A DNA stretch of 64,000 bases from Candidatus Magnetomicrobium cryptolimnococcus (GTDB lineage Bacteria > Nitrospirota > Thermodesulfovibrionia > Thermodesulfovibrionales > Magnetobacteriaceae). Shown piece by piece: positions 25,240 through 58,781 of the stretch; position 1 is the stretch's first letter, and each line of letters opens with the position of its first letter. The DNA lies in NCBI GenBank assembly GCA_018606805.1, contig JAGYWI010000006.1:1-64000 (forward strand). Reading direction: 5' to 3'. The position numbers and the translations under genes were made by a program. The notes under the pieces are model-generated. The model was given only the letters and a program-made list of their open reading frames with translations. It searched no databases and was not told the DNA's origin.

Positions 25240-28200
25240 ATGAATCCCTACGACAATAACCGCATACGTATAGGTAATCAGACTGCTTTTAGTTCCAAAG
25301 CGGTTATGGACCCTTTTTCTTATTGTATATCAAAAGGGTTTGATGCCTTTGAATGGTTTCCGGACAAAAAACCATGGGGGGAGGGGTGGCTTGAAGAAGA
25401 TATTTCGAAGGCTGAACGTTGTAGTATCAGGCTTACTTCCGCTATGCACAACATACGCCTATCAGTACATGCGGAGGTGCGTGCCAACCCGCTAAAGGCG
25501 GAGTCCTATGGTTTAATCTTTAAAAGCGTTGAATTTGCATCACACATTGGGGCTGTTTTACTGAATATCCATCTCCATACGGAAGAGGGGGTGGAAAGGT
25601 ATGTGGAATCCGTAAAACCCATAATAAAGCTTACGGCAGAGGCTGGGTTATTGCTTTCAATAGAAAACACAGTCATTACTGGTCCTGGGGATTTTAATCA
25701 TGCCTTTTATCTCATACGCAATCTACAGGACGTACCAACAAACCACGTGGGTATGTGTTTTGATTTTGGACATGCCAATATTTGGCATGAGACAAGGAAT
25801 GATTACATTAAGTATTTAGACCGTCTTGACGTTGAAGTGCCAATTATACATATTCATATGCACGAAAACTATGGTGATAAGGACGCTCACTTACCGCTTT
25901 TTAGTGGACCTGCCGGACAAAATGCAGGGGGCGTTGCTGTCTTTACTGAGCGTATCACTAAACGTGGGTTTAATGGCTCTATTATACTTGAGCAGTGGCC
26001 AGAGCCTCCAGAACTCCTTGATAAGGCACGCAGTGGTTTAAATAGTTTGATTAATACATTAAAAGTAAACGATACTTTACAGCAAAAAAAAACTGTACCC
26101 TTACAACAAGTAGAGATTGTATTAAAAAAAGAGCAAGTTAGTAGTAAGCAGGCTTTTGGTGGAGGGGAAGTAGATTTTGCAGATATTGTAGTGGAAGCCA
26201 ATAAAACAAACCGCAGTTGGCGCAATAAACTGAACTGGATATCCTCACTTTTTGATTCAAATACACTTAATGTTAATACTCAAGAAAAGCTGATTTATTT
26301 AGCAATCTATCTACATTTTTTAAATACAGGACAGATTAAATGCCAAGAAGACGGTAGCCACTATCGTCCATCGCATCACGCACGGGCTGCTATGAAAATA
26401 TACAAAGCACTTGTGAACCTCATGAACTCTGATAATGCCTTTATAATAAGGAAAATGCTACTTCGGTTGCCATCCTATGACGATGCTTACACAAGGGCTG
26501 AACCGCTTACAAGGATACGGGACATTGCACACAGGAATGATATTCCGAAAGAGCTTAAAAAGGAAATCAAGGATACCTTACAAAACAAACTCCACAGGTG
26601 CGCAGGTCCTGAGGACATGGAGACATCAAAAGACATATTAAGTCGTATAACTGCACCGGGGGCTTCGTACTCTATAGGCTTTGTTGAACAATTTAAGATA
26701 TTCCATAAGGAGCTTACCGAGTTTTTTAATGCCACTACGCTTATAGAAAGGCTTACTGGTATAAAAGATGATTGCAATAGATTGTACGATACTGAAAGTG
26801 CTGACTTAATAAATAAGCTGCTTTTATCCTTAAAAGATGGTGGGCAACGAACCCCTGAAACTATTATTAATACCGTTACTGTGCTTACGGATTTAAGGGA
26901 GATATTTTTGACCTATAGTCAAAAGGATACTGAGGCACGCAGCCAACGGATTTTAATAGCTGAAATATCTCTTGAAGATTTTGCATTCATACTTTTTAGT
27001 GAGCTTTTTAATAAATTAGAGCATGAAGGGCAAAGCGTACATTTATTTTTGCAAACATTAAGTTTACTTATAAAAAATATTATTTTAACTACAAAGGGCA
27101 AAGAGGAAGTTCAATATATTTTAAAAGAAATAGATACGTGGCAAGAAGATTTTACGGAAACTAATTACATTCATGTACTGCGTCTAAAGGCAACATTGGA
27201 GCGAGCACTGCGTTTTACACACGAATATGGCAGCAACGTCATAGCAATGTTTTATGACAAGGCGGTTAAGCTTGGTAGTGCACTTGACATTGATGAGCAT
27301 GCGGTTACTGTATATTGTGAGGACGATATACGTAGCAATCTGGTTTTTCAGCTTTCAAAGTTTCTTGTCTTTGTCATAAAATATTTACGCAATAAGGCAG
27401 GTCTGCAGTTTTGGGACACACTCGTGCCAGGTAGTGTTATAGGATATGTGCAGCATTTTGAAAGGCTAGAGTACTACGTTTTTGATACTATTAAAGGCAG
27501 CGTAATTGCACTCGTTGATAAAATTGATGGGGATGAATATATAAAAGAAGGTATTGCTGCAGTAGTGATTCCACATGATTTGCCGCATCTTTCGCATTTT
27601 GCTATACGCGCAAGACAGTCGGGTACTACTCTTGTTTGTCTGCAAGAAATAGAAAAATTTTCTAATTATTTAACACTTGTTGGGCAAAAGGCTTTTATAT
27701 CTGCATTTGAATCAGAATTTACATTTGACACTAATTTAACAAATATATCTGCCGCAGTTAATAAACCAAACGCTTTGCACAAAGAAGCTATAAGCATTGA
27801 ACATAGCATTATTGATGATAACAATAAAGAGGATTTTTACTTTTTATCAGAGATAAACATACAAAATGGTGGTCAAAAGGCAGGTAATTTAAAAATGCTA
27901 TATCAGGCATCTCAATTACCCGGTGCTATTTATAAAACTCCAAATGCCATTGTGCTTCCCTTTGGGCTAATGCACAAAGCGCTAAATGCCTACTCGCCAC
28001 AGCTTTTTGATGAATACATAAGCGTAGTAAACACGTTAGAAAAAGGCGTTTATGAAAAAGGTGCTGAGCCTTTACTTTTGCGCTTAAAAGCTATTATTTC
28101 TGAAATTCCAATTGCTAAGTCTATCGTAGATAACATTAAGTCATTTTTTCATGGCGATGGTTTATTGGTTGTGCGTTCAAGCTCTAACTGTGAAGACCTT

Positions 28201-28776
28201 GAGACGATGTCAGGGGCTGGGTTATATGAGTCAGTAGTGGGTGTAAAGCATGAAGGCATAGAGGATGCTGTTAGATACGTTTGGGCTTCTTTGTGGTTAA
28301 CAAGGGCTTTTAATTCACGTGTGCAGTATGGGATTAGTCAAATGTATGCGCGTATGGCAGTTATAGTGCAAAAATTGATTATGCCAGATTATGCCTTTAT
28401 AATGCACAGCGTTAACCCAATAAATAGAAATAGTGATGAGGTGTATGTTGAGCTTGCCCCAGGTCTTGGTGAAACTCTTACATCTTCTAAAGCCAACGGT
28501 AGTGCGTACAGAATTGTGTGTAAGGCAAATAAAGATAAAACTGATTTGCTAAACTTAAAGATGCTCTCTTTTGCGAATTATAGTAATATAGGTAAAAAAA
28601 CTATTGATTATACGAAAGAACCCCTTACAATAAATGATTTATACCGTAAAAATATTGCAAGACGGCTTTTTCAAATTGCTATATGTGTAGAAGAAACATT
28701 TGATAACAAACCGCAGGACATAGAAGGCGTTATTGTTGGTGATGATATTTATGTAGTTCAAAGCCGTAACTTTTAA
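25240..28776 (+). CDS. Fusion of AP2-type sugar isomerase-like TIM barrel with glucan-water-dikinase-like C-terminus
   Basis: 1178 aa. Residues 1-265 form an AP-endonuclease-2/xylose-isomerase-like barrel with metal ligands Glu142 (SIENT), Asp175 and His178 (FDFGHAN), the HIHMHENYGDKDAHLP loop and Glu251 (ILEQW). Residues about 325-740 are helical and unrecognised. The C-terminal part follows plant glucan, water dikinase order: a phosphohistidine segment around HDLPHLSHFAIRARQ (His786), then an ATP-binding domain with VVRSSSNCEDLETMSGAG (Arg979), VWASLWLTRAF, VELAPGLGETL and the closing IEGVIVGDDIYVVQSR. PEP synthase has the reverse order of these two domains. A role in phosphorylating glycogen-like glucan with ATP is an inference. 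The plant carbohydrate-binding modules are absent. Confidence 0.8.
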   Translation: MNPYDNNRIRIGNQTAFSSKAVMDPFSYCISKGFDAFEWFPDKKPWGEGWLEEDISKAERCSIRLTSAMHNIRLSVHAEVRANPLKAESYGLIFKSVEFASHIGAVLLNIHLHTEEGVERYVESVKPIIKLTAEAGLLLSIENTVITGPGDFNHAFYLIRNLQDVPTNHVGMCFDFGHANIWHETRNDYIKYLDRLDVEVPIIHIHMHENYGDKDAHLPLFSGPAGQNAGGVAVFTERITKRGFNGSIILEQWPEPPELLDKARSGLNSLINTLKVNDTLQQKKTVPLQQVEIVLKKEQVSSKQAFGGGEVDFADIVVEANKTNRSWRNKLNWISSLFDSNTLNVNTQEKLIYLAIYLHFLNTGQIKCQEDGSHYRPSHHARAAMKIYKALVNLMNSDNAFIIRKMLLRLPSYDDAYTRAEPLTRIRDIAHRNDIPKELKKEIKDTLQNKLHRCAGPEDMETSKDILSRITAPGASYSIGFVEQFKIFHKELTEFFNATTLIERLTGIKDDCNRLYDTESADLINKLLLSLKDGGQRTPETIINTVTVLTDLREIFLTYSQKDTEARSQRILIAEISLEDFAFILFSELFNKLEHEGQSVHLFLQTLSLLIKNIILTTKGKEEVQYILKEIDTWQEDFTETNYIHVLRLKATLERALRFTHEYGSNVIAMFYDKAVKLGSALDIDEHAVTVYCEDDIRSNLVFQLSKFLVFVIKYLRNKAGLQFWDTLVPGSVIGYVQHFERLEYYVFDTIKGSVIALVDKIDGDEYIKEGIAAVVIPHDLPHLSHFAIRARQSGTTLVCLQEIEKFSNYLTLVGQKAFISAFESEFTFDTNLTNISAAVNKPNALHKEAISIEHSIIDDNNKEDFYFLSEINIQNGGQKAGNLKMLYQASQLPGAIYKTPNAIVLPFGLMHKALNAYSPQLFDEYISVVNTLEKGVYEKGAEPLLLRLKAIISEIPIAKSIVDNIKSFFHGDGLLVVRSSSNCEDLETMSGAGLYESVVGVKHEGIEDAVRYVWASLWLTRAFNSRVQYGISQMYARMAVIVQKLIMPDYAFIMHSVNPINRNSDEVYVELAPGLGETLTSSKANGSAYRIVCKANKDKTDLLNLKMLSFANYSNIGKKTIDYTKEPLTINDLYRKNIARRLFQIAICVEETFDNKPQDIEGVIVGDDIYVVQSRNF

Positions 28777-52967: not shown

Positions 52968-53978
52968 TTATTTTGCAACTGCTACAAGTGAACGTACCTT
53001 GACATCTGTCTCAACAATAGGTAGATTAAAGGAAGCACAGTAACGGCTTTTGGCATAGGGGTTTCGCATATTTAAAAGTATATCCTCTGCAAAGTGAATC
53101 TTGTCTCTTTGAAAAAACACTATGTTTGTACTTGCGCCAGGGCGAAACAGACTTTTTGGATTACCTTTTTTAAGGAACATACCCGGCATCATACCTTGTG
53201 GGTTTTCATACCTGTGCTCACTGTAACATTGAACAATATCGCCTATCATTAGTGCTGCTATTTCTATAAATGCCACAAAACCAACCTTAGTACCACCCTC
53301 TACATCGGTATCTATAATTGTTACGGAGCGCCTGTTTTTTGAAAAAGGCGTTATGGTTTTAATAATGGCGCAGGGATTACAGGAGTGGTATTTGCCCTCT
53401 ATTTCATAGAAGTCTATCACCTGGCCAGAAACGGGGTTATGATTGTAGTGATATTTGTCCGGTGTTAGGCGGAAAACCATAAAATCCCCTCCTTTAAATG
53501 CCTTAAGCCACTGGGGTTTATCTATGCCAAACAGCTCATCATAATTAAAGAACTTCCCCTTTATCAAAATCTCCGAATGCCCACACAGCGAACCAAAAAG
53601 TACCCGTGAATCAGACGGGCTGGTTACCGTCCATGGCTCCTTTGGCATCGGGCGTCTTTGCCAGTAGCGTATTTGCCGCTCAAAGACCTTTGCTGGTGTT
53701 GACAAATTTTGTACCGGTTCAAGGCACTCGCTAAAATCCACACCTAATGCCTTTAAAAACTCTAAACCTCCGGTTAACCTAGCGCTTAGTACATGTTTAT
53801 AATTTAAAAACCCTATTGCCTTTGAAAATTGCCGCCCAGTTAATGCACTAAAAATAGCCGGCGCATTTTCCTTTATAGCTCCATAGAGGACATTTACTGT
53901 GAAATCTGCAAACATGCTCTCATCCACAATTTTACCGCTTTCTCTATCAATGTACTGATGGGGATAGTTTTTCATCAC
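52968..53978 (-). CDS. Phosphatidylserine decarboxylase-like protein
   Basis: 336 aa, long Psd type. Recognisable blocks: WQRRPMPKEPWTVTSPSDSRVLFGS, FRLTPDKYHYNHNPVSGQV and KVGFVAFIEIAALMIGDIVQCYSE. The self-cleavage site, usually GGST, reads PGAST (Ala282-Ser283), so the pyruvoyl-forming Ser is retained after Ala. Whether it self-processes or has a new substrate is open. Overlaps the upstream 797-aa gene by 32 bp, which implies tight coupling. A second Psd (10423-11061) is the likely housekeeping enzyme. Confidence 0.8.
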   Translation of the reverse strand: MMKNYPHQYIDRESGKIVDESMFADFTVNVLYGAIKENAPAIFSALTGRQFSKAIGFLNYKHVLSARLTGGLEFLKALGVDFSECLEPVQNLSTPAKVFERQIRYWQRRPMPKEPWTVTSPSDSRVLFGSLCGHSEILIKGKFFNYDELFGIDKPQWLKAFKGGDFMVFRLTPDKYHYNHNPVSGQVIDFYEIEGKYHSCNPCAIIKTITPFSKNRRSVTIIDTDVEGGTKVGFVAFIEIAALMIGDIVQCYSEHRYENPQGMMPGMFLKKGNPKSLFRPGASTNIVFFQRDKIHFAEDILLNMRNPYAKSRYCASFNLPIVETDVKVRSLVAVAK

Positions 53979-56340
53979 AATTAAAGGACTCCACTTTGTG
54001 CGCCAAGCGCTCTATTTCTTCGTATATGTTTATTAGTAGGACATAAATAAGGCTTATTAAATCCCTTTCCGATATGGTCTCTTTAAAAATCCCTTGCAAG
54101 CAGCTTTCAAGTAATTCCCCTATTTGACGGTTGCCAAGCACCTGCTTTAACACATATAATGATGAATGCGATAAGTCCTCAATACGACAAATGCCAGTTT
54201 CAAAATCTGCTCTAAGTGCCGTCAGACCTTCTTTTATGTGCTTTAAGCGGAGGGGTTCACGGTAGTACTCCTCTAAAGCCGTATTGTATTCAAAGGCACT
54301 TAACTTAAAGGGCGAGGATACACCTGCTACATTTAAAATGCCTGTCGTTAGTTTTGAAAACACCGAGTTTTCTTTATAAAACACTATACGATTATACAAA
54401 TCTTTTATCGTATCTTCCATATTATAAAGCTCTATAAGACCTGAGCCGTCTTCCTTGATTAAGTTAAGAAGCGCCCTTTGGTAGTCGTTAACTCGCACCT
54501 TAAGGTAACCAGCGTAGCGTTTGCTAGCCCTTGAAGATACGGTGTTTTTTAAAATCCTTTGAAGAAACAGATTATCTGTATTTGCCTTTACATAAAAAGC
54601 CGGTATGCCGCAAGCAGCAGCAAAGATTATGTGTCGCCGTTCACTTTCAACAAAAGGTGTATCCGGTATGTGGTGATAGTGTACTTCGCCACTTGCCATA
54701 TACTTATAAGCAAGTGCTGTTATGAGCACCTGAAGGTTAGCCGCATGGGATAAATCGCCAGTAATGCTTTCAAATAGTGAATAATGTCTGCCCTCAAAAC
54801 CGCAGTAACCTATATCTTTGCGCCTACGCAGCCTATAAAGCAGATAAAGGGACATCTTGTCGTGAAAAACACCTGTGTGCATAAGGTCTTTTTTCAATCT
54901 TTCCCCGTTACCCTCAGCACCGTCGAGGGCTGGACTATTTTCAGTGCTAAGGAGGCTTACTAGGTAGTCAAGAAGCCTATAGTCAGGGACATAGTCGCCT
55001 TTAAAATTTAAAAAATTTGCTATTAATCTATCTATCCATGGAGGGCCAAAGGGGGTTATCGGTTTATTTAAAAATCGAATATTAGCCTTTTTAAGCCACT
55101 GCTGCCAAAACATTCTAAGATGACGGTAGTGCAGTTCATGAGAAAGTGGGGCAAGCAGGCGTTCAGGATGAAAATCGGCAAAGCCAAGTCTGTACGGTGC
55201 TGCCGTGTACGTAGCCGTAAATAGTGGTAAAAAGTGCTCTACAATCTTTATAGCAAGGTCTCCTGTGTATTTTTCAAACCCCTCTGCCATATTACGCGCA
55301 CCTGTTAGCTTTTTACTACCTATACTTAGGTGCGTACCATTATTTGCAAGGCAGATACTTGATGTATTTGGCAATACTACAAGATTATTGGCAACTATCC
55401 CCGCCTCTTTAAGTTTATACATACCATTTAGCAAACTTTTACTCAATACCTCATGGCATAGGTGCATGTACTTGTGCTTTTCCTCACCCTTTGACCAGCC
55501 AGCAAGACAGGGGTTCATGAAAAGTTCCCTATAAAAGGAATCAGGGATACAGTCATTTAGGAGCTTTTGTCTTATTGGTGGATGAGGAGAGTTAAATACC
55601 TTTACATGCTGGCCACTCATATCAAGTCTGAATTTCTTGTTTGCATACATTGCCAGCAGGTTTGTAAGTAGAAACCTCTTGGCATTTTCATGTGCAAGCC
55701 CCAAACCTAAACCTGACGCAAGCCCCATGTTTGTTATATAAAACGAGTGCGTTTCAGGGGAGGTGTTATCGCTTATAAAACAAGTCACAACCCGCTCGTA
55801 CACCTTTAACAGGACATCTGGAGCGTCAGTTACAACATCACAAAGTGCTAATTTCAAAAGATAGCTTACAGGTACCCGCACGTACTCACCTTCGTATTTA
55901 TTTAAAAGGTATCTATGGGCGTCTTTTCTACTACCTGCTGAGATGTCATCTTTATCTGCCCTTAGGTCATTCATAAATGTCCTAACTGCCCATTGATTCA
56001 TAAGCTTCAAAGGAAAACACACCCAACTATTTTCCCAAACGCCATCTTTGTTAGAGTCTAAGTAAGTCTCTATATCGGAGATAGCCTTACGTGGTGCCTC
56101 TGCGGATTCATAACGTTTTTTTAAATTCAAAAAATACTTTGAATGTAATATGGAAAGTGCAAGGTCTACTGTATTTTTTTCACCAATGACCACAGTCTGT
56201 AGTTCTGTTTCAGTACCTGCGGTTACATCATCTAAAGAAAACGGTAGGCTTTTAACAAGTTTTTCCTCTTTACCTGTCTCCACACCTATACTTTCAAACA
56301 TATACACAAGCTCAGATTTACTATACAAATGATTTTTCAT
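53947..56340 (-). CDS. Large unrecognised protein in the lipid operon
   Basis: 797 aa, no signal peptide and no clear membrane helix. It is mostly alpha-helical by composition, with many Leu, His, Tyr and Arg. Conserved-looking patches include ITNMGLASGLGLGLAHENAK, FNSPHPPIRQKLLNDCIP, KWIDRLIANF-like PPWIDRLIANFLNF and HELHYRHLRMFWQQWLKKA. I recognise no family. Translational coupling to the Psd-like gene (32-bp overlap) and a 23-bp gap from the PHP-GT4 gene indicate a shared pathway. It could be a scaffold, an acyl- or glycosyl-transfer enzyme of a new family, or a regulator. Confidence 0.8.
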   Translation of the reverse strand: MKNHLYSKSELVYMFESIGVETGKEEKLVKSLPFSLDDVTAGTETELQTVVIGEKNTVDLALSILHSKYFLNLKKRYESAEAPRKAISDIETYLDSNKDGVWENSWVCFPLKLMNQWAVRTFMNDLRADKDDISAGSRKDAHRYLLNKYEGEYVRVPVSYLLKLALCDVVTDAPDVLLKVYERVVTCFISDNTSPETHSFYITNMGLASGLGLGLAHENAKRFLLTNLLAMYANKKFRLDMSGQHVKVFNSPHPPIRQKLLNDCIPDSFYRELFMNPCLAGWSKGEEKHKYMHLCHEVLSKSLLNGMYKLKEAGIVANNLVVLPNTSSICLANNGTHLSIGSKKLTGARNMAEGFEKYTGDLAIKIVEHFLPLFTATYTAAPYRLGFADFHPERLLAPLSHELHYRHLRMFWQQWLKKANIRFLNKPITPFGPPWIDRLIANFLNFKGDYVPDYRLLDYLVSLLSTENSPALDGAEGNGERLKKDLMHTGVFHDKMSLYLLYRLRRRKDIGYCGFEGRHYSLFESITGDLSHAANLQVLITALAYKYMASGEVHYHHIPDTPFVESERRHIIFAAACGIPAFYVKANTDNLFLQRILKNTVSSRASKRYAGYLKVRVNDYQRALLNLIKEDGSGLIELYNMEDTIKDLYNRIVFYKENSVFSKLTTGILNVAGVSSPFKLSAFEYNTALEEYYREPLRLKHIKEGLTALRADFETGICRIEDLSHSSLYVLKQVLGNRQIGELLESCLQGIFKETISERDLISLIYVLLINIYEEIERLAHKVESFNCDEKLSPSVH

Positions 56341-56363: not shown

Positions 56364-58781
56364 TCAAACACTAACAACCTTTCCCTTACTTTTAAAATTA
56401 AAAATTGTACTATAGTGTTGCGTGCTATCAATCCCATTATCATTAATATACTTTAAAGCATTATGGCTCATTGTACAAAGACCATCCTTATTGTTAAGGA
56501 AAAACGACATTGCCTCAACAAAGGCATCAACGCTATCGTGCTTAATAACAAAACCAGTCTCCCTATCAACCATAAGCTCCTTAGGGCCTCCTTCGTTTGT
56601 AACAATAACGGGCAAACCGGAGGCTTGTGCCTCAAGTACAACATTTCCAAACGTATCAGTTGTGCTTGGAAACACGAACACATCCGCCGAGGCATATAGT
56701 GTGCATAGTTGTTGGCCGGATTTAAAACCTGTAAAAATAACTGGATAACCCTCTAAAAGCCGTTCAAACTCCTCTTTAAATGGACCATCACCAACCATAA
56801 TTAGTACTGCTTCAGCTCCTTTATCTATTAGCCTTTTAAAAGCCTCTGCTAAAAATGCAAGGTTTTTTTCTTTAGAAATCCTGCCAACATACAAAAACTT
56901 CGTACGACAACCAATATCATATTTATCCCAAATACTTATATCTTTATTTTCAGGTTTAAACACCTCCCTATCCACCCACCTAGGTAGTGGTTTCACCTTA
57001 GTTTCCTCAAGTCCCTTTTCAATTAATTGACGTCTTGTACTTGATGATGGTACAGTTACCTCATCCATCATATTATAAAACCACACCATATAGTTCCACG
57101 CTACATCCTCGATAAAGGCATCATCAGTTAACTGCCTAATATAATTTGGAATATCCGTGTGATATGTGCCTGTTATTGGCAAGTTCAAAAGCTTGGAAAT
57201 AAGTAAACCGGTAAGCCCCATAGAGCCCGGTGTACTTATGTGGATTCTGTTAAATCCCTCCTTGTGAAAATATTGCAAAAGGTCAAGAATAGGCGGAAAA
57301 CCCATCTTAAGTTCCGGATATTCAGGCAGGGCAAAATCCCCAACTGATTTAAAGTTAGTTACGCCACCGAAACTACCGCTTGTTTCATTTGTTGATGTTA
57401 TTATTACAAGCTCAATGCCTTGTTTTTTAGCATTTTGGAGCATGCGTTTTATCGTTACGGAAACACCATTGATTTCATGAAGTGTATCTGTAAAAAGAGC
57501 AGTCTTGCAGGGTACATCTTCAATATCAACTCCTAAAAAACTATAGGAAAATTGACTCAATAATTCCTTATTTTTGCTTTGATGGTAAAAGGAAATGTAA
57601 TATGGACTAATCAGTAAATGAGACAAGGCTATCGAGCTTAAGGAGTTAATTATATCAAAAATTCCCCGTGAAATAGCATCGTTTAAAAGCCTTTGCGTGT
57701 ATACGTAAAGAATGCGATTTGCTAAATGACTGATAGCAGCAAATATCTTTTGATTAAACCCCTCAAACTGAAGGTTTTTTAAAAACTCCTTATCATTTAA
57801 AAGGTTTCTTGCCTCCATATCCAAGATGTCTTCAAAACTTGAGCTTTTAGTTTCTCCACCAGTTGAAACAAAATAATAATTTTTTATAAAAAAGCGTACC
57901 TTCTCACCTATGGTCGGTTTTTTAGTGTTTGTGCCAAAGAGCCTATCTGCAACCATATTTATAAATTTATGTGAACTGTTGTTTTTATTATTTAACTTAT
58001 CTTTTAAAAAACGGTATCCAATTGCATATATACTGTGTGATAAAGTAAGTGGGTCGCCATCTTCTCCCCCGGCCCATGTTTGCATATTTTCTATGGCATC
58101 AAGAAACTCCGTTAAGGTCTCCCCTTTTCTTGAAAGTGTATATGCCCTTGATATGAAAAACCCACCATGATCATCAGAGCCACCAACCATGCCCTTTATC
58201 CATGGCGTTTCACCAATTGGTGAGAGGTTATGTTTATTTACGAGCTCCTCTATCTTTTGATGGCTTAAGTTTAACACAGCCCTTTCTATTACACTATTTA
58301 ATTTATTAGAGCGTGCTCCATTTTTAACCTCAAAAATATTAAATAACAAAAACATCTTTTCTAAGACTTCCATAGTAAGCTTACCGTTTAGATCATAAAA
58401 TGGGTGGGCTATAAAATGCACTATATGATTTTGCCTTAGATAAACAACCAGCTCATATACGTTTTGTCTTAAAGATAAAATGTCCTTAAACTCTGTCTCA
58501 GAAATATTCAAAACAACTACATGGATTTTACAACTATTTTCAGGAAAATAGGTGGTTATCTCTGAACTGACAAATGCCCTTGGCAATCCTGCAATTTCCA
58601 TAGCACCATCAATAGAGTTATGGTCTGTTATTGTTACATAATCCATCCCATTTTCAATAGCTTTGCGGTATATCTCTTTCGGTGTTGTCAAACTTTCTGG
58701 ACAGTTGATCTTTCTTAATGCCCAAATCGAGGGCTTATTGGAGTACTTCGAATGTACGTGTAAATCTGTTTTATATATCAT
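56364..58781 (-). CDS. PHP phosphoesterase-like domain fused to GT4 glycosyltransferase
   Basis: 805 aa. Residues 1-240 are a PHP domain: TDLHVHSKYS (metal-binding HVH), TITDHNSIDGA, HFIAHPFYD and GGSDDHGGF. A linker of about 200 residues follows. From about residue 440 the protein is a GT-B family 4 glycosyltransferase with GRISKEKNLAFLAEAF, MVGDGPFKEEF, FPSTTDTFGNVVLEAQASGLPVIV (the E-x7-E donor-site motif) and EGGPKELM. The GT4 part resembles enzymes that glycosylate lipids (MgtA/SQD2-like). It is the first gene of the operon. The PHP part might remove a phosphate from a lipid or sugar substrate. Confidence 0.88.
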   Translation of the reverse strand: MIYKTDLHVHSKYSNKPSIWALRKINCPESLTTPKEIYRKAIENGMDYVTITDHNSIDGAMEIAGLPRAFVSSEITTYFPENSCKIHVVVLNISETEFKDILSLRQNVYELVVYLRQNHIVHFIAHPFYDLNGKLTMEVLEKMFLLFNIFEVKNGARSNKLNSVIERAVLNLSHQKIEELVNKHNLSPIGETPWIKGMVGGSDDHGGFFISRAYTLSRKGETLTEFLDAIENMQTWAGGEDGDPLTLSHSIYAIGYRFLKDKLNNKNNSSHKFINMVADRLFGTNTKKPTIGEKVRFFIKNYYFVSTGGETKSSSFEDILDMEARNLLNDKEFLKNLQFEGFNQKIFAAISHLANRILYVYTQRLLNDAISRGIFDIINSLSSIALSHLLISPYYISFYHQSKNKELLSQFSYSFLGVDIEDVPCKTALFTDTLHEINGVSVTIKRMLQNAKKQGIELVIITSTNETSGSFGGVTNFKSVGDFALPEYPELKMGFPPILDLLQYFHKEGFNRIHISTPGSMGLTGLLISKLLNLPITGTYHTDIPNYIRQLTDDAFIEDVAWNYMVWFYNMMDEVTVPSSSTRRQLIEKGLEETKVKPLPRWVDREVFKPENKDISIWDKYDIGCRTKFLYVGRISKEKNLAFLAEAFKRLIDKGAEAVLIMVGDGPFKEEFERLLEGYPVIFTGFKSGQQLCTLYASADVFVFPSTTDTFGNVVLEAQASGLPVIVTNEGGPKELMVDRETGFVIKHDSVDAFVEAMSFFLNNKDGLCTMSHNALKYINDNGIDSTQHYSTIFNFKSKGKVVSV

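Follow-up and report, generated by a model that had tools for sequence, protein, structure and literature searches.

Results

A TIM barrel and a dikinase share one unbroken frame

The window analyzed here, a 64,000-nucleotide stretch of the Candidatus Magnetomicrobium cryptolimnococcus assembly, contains at 25240–28776 on the forward strand a single unbroken frame of 1178 codons; the reverse strand at this place is rich in stops. The gene has a GC content of 0.38, compared with 0.376 for the window. Its product, P0001, gave three Pfam matches, all above the curated cut-offs and in the order AP_endonuc_2 (residues 31–263, 3e-19), GWD1_pHisD (PF22973, residues 725–817, 7e-17) and PPDK_N (PF01326, residues 953–1177, 2e-28). 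A preliminary description of this DNA had proposed a barrel, a phosphohistidine domain of the glucan, water dikinase (GWD) type, and an order in which the latter precedes the ATP-binding domain, and all three were confirmed. The features of the locus are as follows:

25240..28776, + strand: barrel-PWD fusion gene P0001, 1178 aa (intact ORF, Pfam, homologous fusions)
25240..26085, + strand: AP_endonuc_2 TIM barrel B, residues 1–282 (Pfam, model, fold match)
25468..25992, + strand: span with nine endonuclease IV-type metal ligands (Nfo alignment, invariance in 68 barrels)
26062..26169, + strand: flexible linker, residues 275–310 (pLDDT <50 in the full-length model)
26173..27399, + strand: all-helical PWD/GWD central region, residues 312–720 (model helices, 9ha9 profile match, comparison with an Arabidopsis PWD sequence, see below)
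27412..27729, + strand: GWD-type phosphohistidine domain, residues 725–830 (PF22973, 7e-17; His786 at 27595–27597)
27823..28773, + strand: C-terminal ATP-binding domain, residues 862–1178 (PF01326, 2e-28; 5hv1 fold; residue conservation)

About 30 genomes, assigned to several phyla in their records, contain the barrel-dikinase fusion, and 28 of the fusions align over their full length. In the window, the gene is surrounded by genes for Rho, a thioesterase, an FMN reductase, TldD, LpxC and a multihaem cytochrome. No glycogen gene was seen among these neighbors; glycogen synthase and phosphorylase are encoded elsewhere in the genome. Further along the window, an 805-aa protein (56364–58781, − strand) unites a PHP domain with a family 4 glycosyltransferase, and its gene adjoins that of a 797-aa protein (53947–56340) without any Pfam match.

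The dikinase half is of the PWD type

Judged by its sequence, the part of P0001 spanning residues 312–1178 is well supported as a bacterial homologue of the plant phosphoglucan, water dikinase PWD/GWD3 (EC 2.7.9.5), with which it shares helical, phosphohistidine and ATP-binding domains in the same order. The earlier reading of the C-terminal half as a GWD/PWD-type engine was sound and can be made more precise: all of residues 312–1178 is PWD-like. The helical region of 400 residues, which had been considered unplaceable, is indeed present and corresponds to the PWD middle region.

We compared P0001 with an Arabidopsis PWD sequence that served as a lead and was not a database record. The alignment of the two takes in the whole helical region; it spans 927 columns at 35% identity and scores 463 bits. 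A paralogue encoded on another contig of the same genome (L096:6657-10055, 1132 aa, the sole clear one) reached 150 bits with the same Arabidopsis sequence. In a tree of bacterial PWD-type (P) and GWD1-type (G) proteins, the Arabidopsis PWD was found on the P side (100/100), where it branches either within the bacterial P proteins or next to them. We hence assign the helical region to the PWD rather than the GWD1 type, an assignment that depends in part on this Arabidopsis sequence, which is not a database record. Moreover, a profile of the 28 fusions matched the potato GWD fragment 9ha9, weakly but significantly (E 9e-11).

The paralogue contains PF23166, PF22973 and PPDK_N, and it matched the central portion of potato GWD for which a structure exists with E 1e-76. 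By its sequence it is GWD1-like and a clear homologue of plant GWD1 (EC 2.7.9.4). P0001 has the same engine in the same order as plant GWD1 but is its PWD-type paralogue. It also differs from plant PWD. No CBM20 or other carbohydrate-binding module (CBM) was detected in P0001 with Pfam; as claimed in the preliminary description, a TIM barrel, here residues 1–282, stands in place of the plant modules. We therefore regard P0001 as a variant and not a typical PWD, i.e., a bacterial protein with an N-terminal metallo-barrel and, presumably, glycogen instead of starch as its substrate.

The GWD-like block VELAPGLGETL, His786 and Arg979, all noted before, are present, as are K880, E1162, Q1174 and R1176 in the ATP-binding domain. 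H786, K880, R979 and E1162 are invariant in all 28 fusions, and Q1174 and R1176 are kept in 27 of them. In fold searches with the full model, which barely probed residues 280–860, the ATP-binding domain matched rifampin phosphotransferase 5hv1 (Z 32.9, rmsd 2.3, 296 aligned residues). Taken alone, this domain lies nearest to structures of PEP synthase, pyruvate phosphate dikinase (PPDK) and rifampin phosphotransferase because no GWD ATP-binding domain was among the solved matches. The shared fold does not extend to the architecture: PEP synthase and PPDK have the order ATP-binding domain, phosphohistidine domain, PEP-binding barrel, whereas P0001 has the first two reversed and no PEP-binding barrel, and no PEP-utilizers C-terminal domain was matched by Pfam. 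The NCBIfam models for PEP synthase and rifampin phosphotransferase covered the ATP-binding domain only, with scores far below their cut-offs. Domain order and these scores rule out membership in the PEP synthase, PPDK or rifampin phosphotransferase families, in agreement with the original argument against PEP synthase and PPDK.

A relative from the same family contains a second PWD fragment (G006:C103:9727-10707) with two internal TAG stops, apparently a decaying copy.

The barrel has a complete set of endonuclease IV-type metal ligands

Barrel B modelled alone had a mean pLDDT of 94.9. Its nearest solved fold was MJ1311 (3wqo; Z 27.0, rmsd 2.5, 246 aligned residues), followed by a family IV AP endonuclease (Z 24.4, rmsd 2.7, 251 aligned residues) and, after it, D-tagatose 3-epimerases (Z about 23–24). 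In a MAFFT alignment, the barrel ligands H77, H111, E142, D175, H178, H206, D215, H217 and E251 corresponded one to one to H69, H109, E145, D179, H182, H216, D229, H231 and E261 of E. coli Nfo, and all nine were invariant in 68 barrels. The metal ligands are hence complete, as the preliminary description had stated, but nine are present where an isomerase would have four. The same nine residues were reportedly noted in MJ1311. Further invariant elements of the 68 barrels are the motifs FEWFPDKK..G.GW and EQWP and the aromatic residues W39, F40, W50, F221 and W253. These motifs, together with the link to glucan dikinases and not to DNA repair, set the barrel apart from MJ1311 and endonuclease IV, with which it shares fold and ligands.

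As a comparison set for mononuclear barrels we used E. coli Hyi, UlaE and YcjR. The nine-ligand set was not kept in Hyi and UlaE and partly kept in YcjR. A mononuclear isomerase would have only E, D, H and E fixed; in barrel B, five extra ligands are invariant, which sets it apart from the usual mononuclear sugar isomerases. The full endonuclease IV-type set points to phosphoester hydrolysis rather than isomerization, and the earlier suggestion of an isomerase-like domain that perhaps rearranges a sugar is probably wrong.

Other barrels of the phylum were unsuitable as mononuclear controls because the trinuclear set is also present in uncharacterized barrels from genomes without GWD. One such barrel family (L102-L111) has most or all of the trinuclear ligands and the motifs FHAPFM, FHSGYE, IENIFE and CFDTGHF. 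With E. coli Nfo as query, no match was obtained in the genome of P0001, an empty answer that carries little weight.

In relatives the barrel gene follows GWD1 in glycogen operons

We surveyed 60 named loci for the barrel and found it either as a stand-alone protein of about 270–275 aa or as part of a PWD fusion of about 1150 aa. The records name Nitrospirota, Deltaproteobacteria/Desulfobacterales, anammox Planctomycetota, Verrucomicrobiota, Omnitrophota and Nitrospinota. Most same-family relatives encode the barrel by a gene of its own, and at two loci (L066, L093) barrel and PWD are encoded by two adjoining genes. A GWD1 gene lies directly upstream in 26 of the 30 fused loci with more than 900 b of upstream sequence, often at a spacing of −4 to 0 b. 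Among relatives, GWD1 is immediately followed by the barrel gene, whether PWD is present or absent, and genes for glycogen synthase, GH57 branching enzyme and GH13 adjoin. The operon order is GWD1 (G), barrel or barrel-PWD (B or B-PWD), a second barrel termed c0, GH13, DUF4912, GH57 branching enzyme and GlgA; the GH13 member is a GH13/debranching-like protein termed c1. The recurrence of the fusion beside glycogen genes, proposed earlier as a check, is thus seen in relatives and not in the window. DUF4912 proteins (L036:7394-8122, L050:1634-2755) are encoded near GH13, GH57 and GlgA genes, which suggests a role of DUF4912 in glycogen metabolism.

Four barrel-PWD proteins, all from Desulfobacterales (L058:3509-5593, L059:9730-12105, L060:1091-3181, L061:10318-12387), keep the barrel and the helical region and end before the phosphohistidine and ATP-binding domains, i.e., they have lost the kinase part. 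No c0 gene was seen at these four loci, where some contigs end soon after. A barrel fused to a kinase-less PWD argues for a barrel role that is independent of a working PWD.

A second barrel family accompanies PWD-type dikinases

The c0 cluster, an AP_endonuc_2-like barrel family, was seen at 25 loci (example L036:4903-5958) and only with PWD-type dikinases; at four of these loci c0 is part of a fusion. c0 had no match in Pfam, NCBIfam or PDB sequences. Its kinship to the barrel became visible by profile comparison only (hhalign probability 95.7, E 9e-9). The invariant residues of c0 are H68, H101, E136, D164, H167, H231, D248, H249 and E298; seven of them match barrel ligands in the MAFFT alignment, and H101 and E298 were matched by eye only.

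The barrel was present in 33 of 396 genomes of the phylum, and all 33 were among the 39 genomes with a GWD phosphohistidine domain (Fisher 2e-42, a value overstated because genomes were treated as independent); the other six of the 39 had the GWD-type domain without barrel B. The PWD middle region was found in 12 of the 396 genomes and c0 in nine, all nine with PWD (4e-16, overstated for the same reason). Of the three PWD genomes lacking c0, one stops at a contig edge; the other two are the window genome and a second genome from its family. One genome has G-B-GH13-GlgA at one site and a PWD-c0 pair about 2 Mb away; in this separate pair, c0 overlaps PWD by 4 b. At L057, PWD and c0 are a single polypeptide. 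The separate pairing of G with B and of PWD with c0 suggests that each dikinase has a barrel partner of its own.

In the tree, the branch that leads to the window PWD is long (1.14, its sister's being 0.47), and linkage to GWD1 and c0 has been lost. This PWD possibly has a changed function or is under relaxed selection.

Discussion

Plants need phosphatases after GWD has phosphorylated C6 and PWD C3 of starch, namely SEX4, acting mainly on C6, and LSF2, acting on C3 (PMC12892837). A dikinase fused to a metallo-barrel, with relatives in glycogen operons, indicates that some bacteria probably phosphorylate and dephosphorylate glycogen as plants do starch. We propose a reversible glycogen phosphorylation cycle with a PWD-type dikinase and barrels that would be metal-dependent phosphoglucan phosphatases, a reading to which we give an even chance of being right in full.

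The phosphorylation chemistry, which belongs to the well-supported half of this reading, follows established GWD/PWD biochemistry (PMC12892837, PMC7569903). ATP would be bound by the C-terminal ATP-grasp domain, and its β-phosphate would pass to His786 on the swivelling phosphohistidine domain and from there to a glucosyl hydroxyl of glycogen gripped by the helical domain. The acceptor would probably be C3, on a glucan that had received a C6 phosphate from the separate GWD1 homologue beforehand; we infer both glycogen as substrate and this C6/C3 assignment. The barrel fused to the PWD half is probably the phosphate-removing partner, a phosphohydrolase predicted from its metal ligands to strip phosphate off the glucan. 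In relatives, B would be the partner of GWD1 and c0 that of PWD. Such a cycle would make densely packed glucan chains accessible to degradation, and later removal of the phosphate, an obstacle to exo-acting enzymes, would free their path.

The barrel would thereby fill the role of SEX4 and LSF2 in plants, and a phosphoester hydrolase-type metal site in dikinase-linked barrels fits this role. The likeness to SEX4, LSF2 and animal laforin lies solely in the proposed job, the removal of C6 and C3 phosphate after GWD and PWD (PMC12892837). Those enzymes are cysteine-based dual-specificity phosphatases, whereas the barrel has an unrelated, metal-dependent fold, and Pfam found no dual-specificity phosphatase domain in P0001. 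One protein with such a domain (DSPc) is encoded in the same genome and was considered as the missing partner; since E. coli and other controls match this family too, it decides nothing. Counting against the proposed reading, the trinuclear set also occurs in the uncharacterized MJ1311 and in uncharacterized barrels from genomes without GWD. The window genome has PWD and yet no c0, and glycogen genes do not adjoin its fusion gene; six of the 39 genomes with a GWD-type domain lack B; and Desulfobacterales keep the barrel on a PWD whose kinase domains are gone.

The barrel might instead be non-catalytic, a glucan-binding or scaffold module that brings the dikinases to the polymer in the stead of CBM20. 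Its position where the plant carbohydrate-binding module sits, its many invariant aromatics and its retention on PWD remnants without kinase domains would agree with this, but a pure binding module would not be expected to keep nine metal ligands in 68 of 68 sequences or to occur so often as a separate 270-aa gene, and we consider it unlikely. Rather improbable, too, is a reading in which the PWD-type dikinase has a working sugar isomerase or epimerase as its fusion partner, one that rearranges a glycogen-derived sugar or sugar phosphate. The Pfam name (AP_endonuc_2/xylose isomerase-like) and D-tagatose and D-psicose 3-epimerases as nearly top structural matches (Z about 22–24) speak for it. 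Against it, H77, H111, H178, D215 and H217 are jointly invariant, as in endonuclease IV, and missing from Hyi and UlaE, and the nearest fold, MJ1311, is no epimerase of demonstrated activity. We see little probability that the target of the system is not glycogen but another polymer or a metabolite: the genes in the window genome do not adjoin glycogen genes, but operons of relatives unite the same genes with GlgA, GH57 branching enzyme and GH13, and the GWD1 partner has the GWD Ig-like N-terminal domain. A false joining of two genes through an error of assembly or frame, as the preliminary description had considered, might fit the separate barrel gene of most same-family relatives but is refuted by the recurrence of the fusion in about 30 independent genomes.

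GWD has long been linked to plastid-bearing, starch-making eukaryotes; bacterial copies were mentioned in passing as possible lateral transfers and were already present in one tree (PMC6260743). Phosphorylation of bacterial glycogen has been a matter of open speculation (PMC13011383). In the open-licence papers covered by our search, we found no earlier description of a bacterial PWD, of the barrel fusion or of the pairing with c0. More tentatively than for the cycle itself, and with somewhat less than an even chance, we suggest that several phyla may have reversible glycogen phosphorylation with the pairs GWD-B and PWD-c0, that the barrels may be new, non-cysteine phosphatases, and that the plant enzyme pair may have old bacterial counterparts. 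Should the barrels prove to be phosphatases, new tools for changing starch phosphate would also be at hand. A dikinase pair and two linked metallo-barrel families in glycogen operons make bacterial glycogen phosphorylation directly testable with soluble proteins, and the same operons do so for the search for bacterial phosphoglucan phosphatases and for the origin of plant GWD and PWD.
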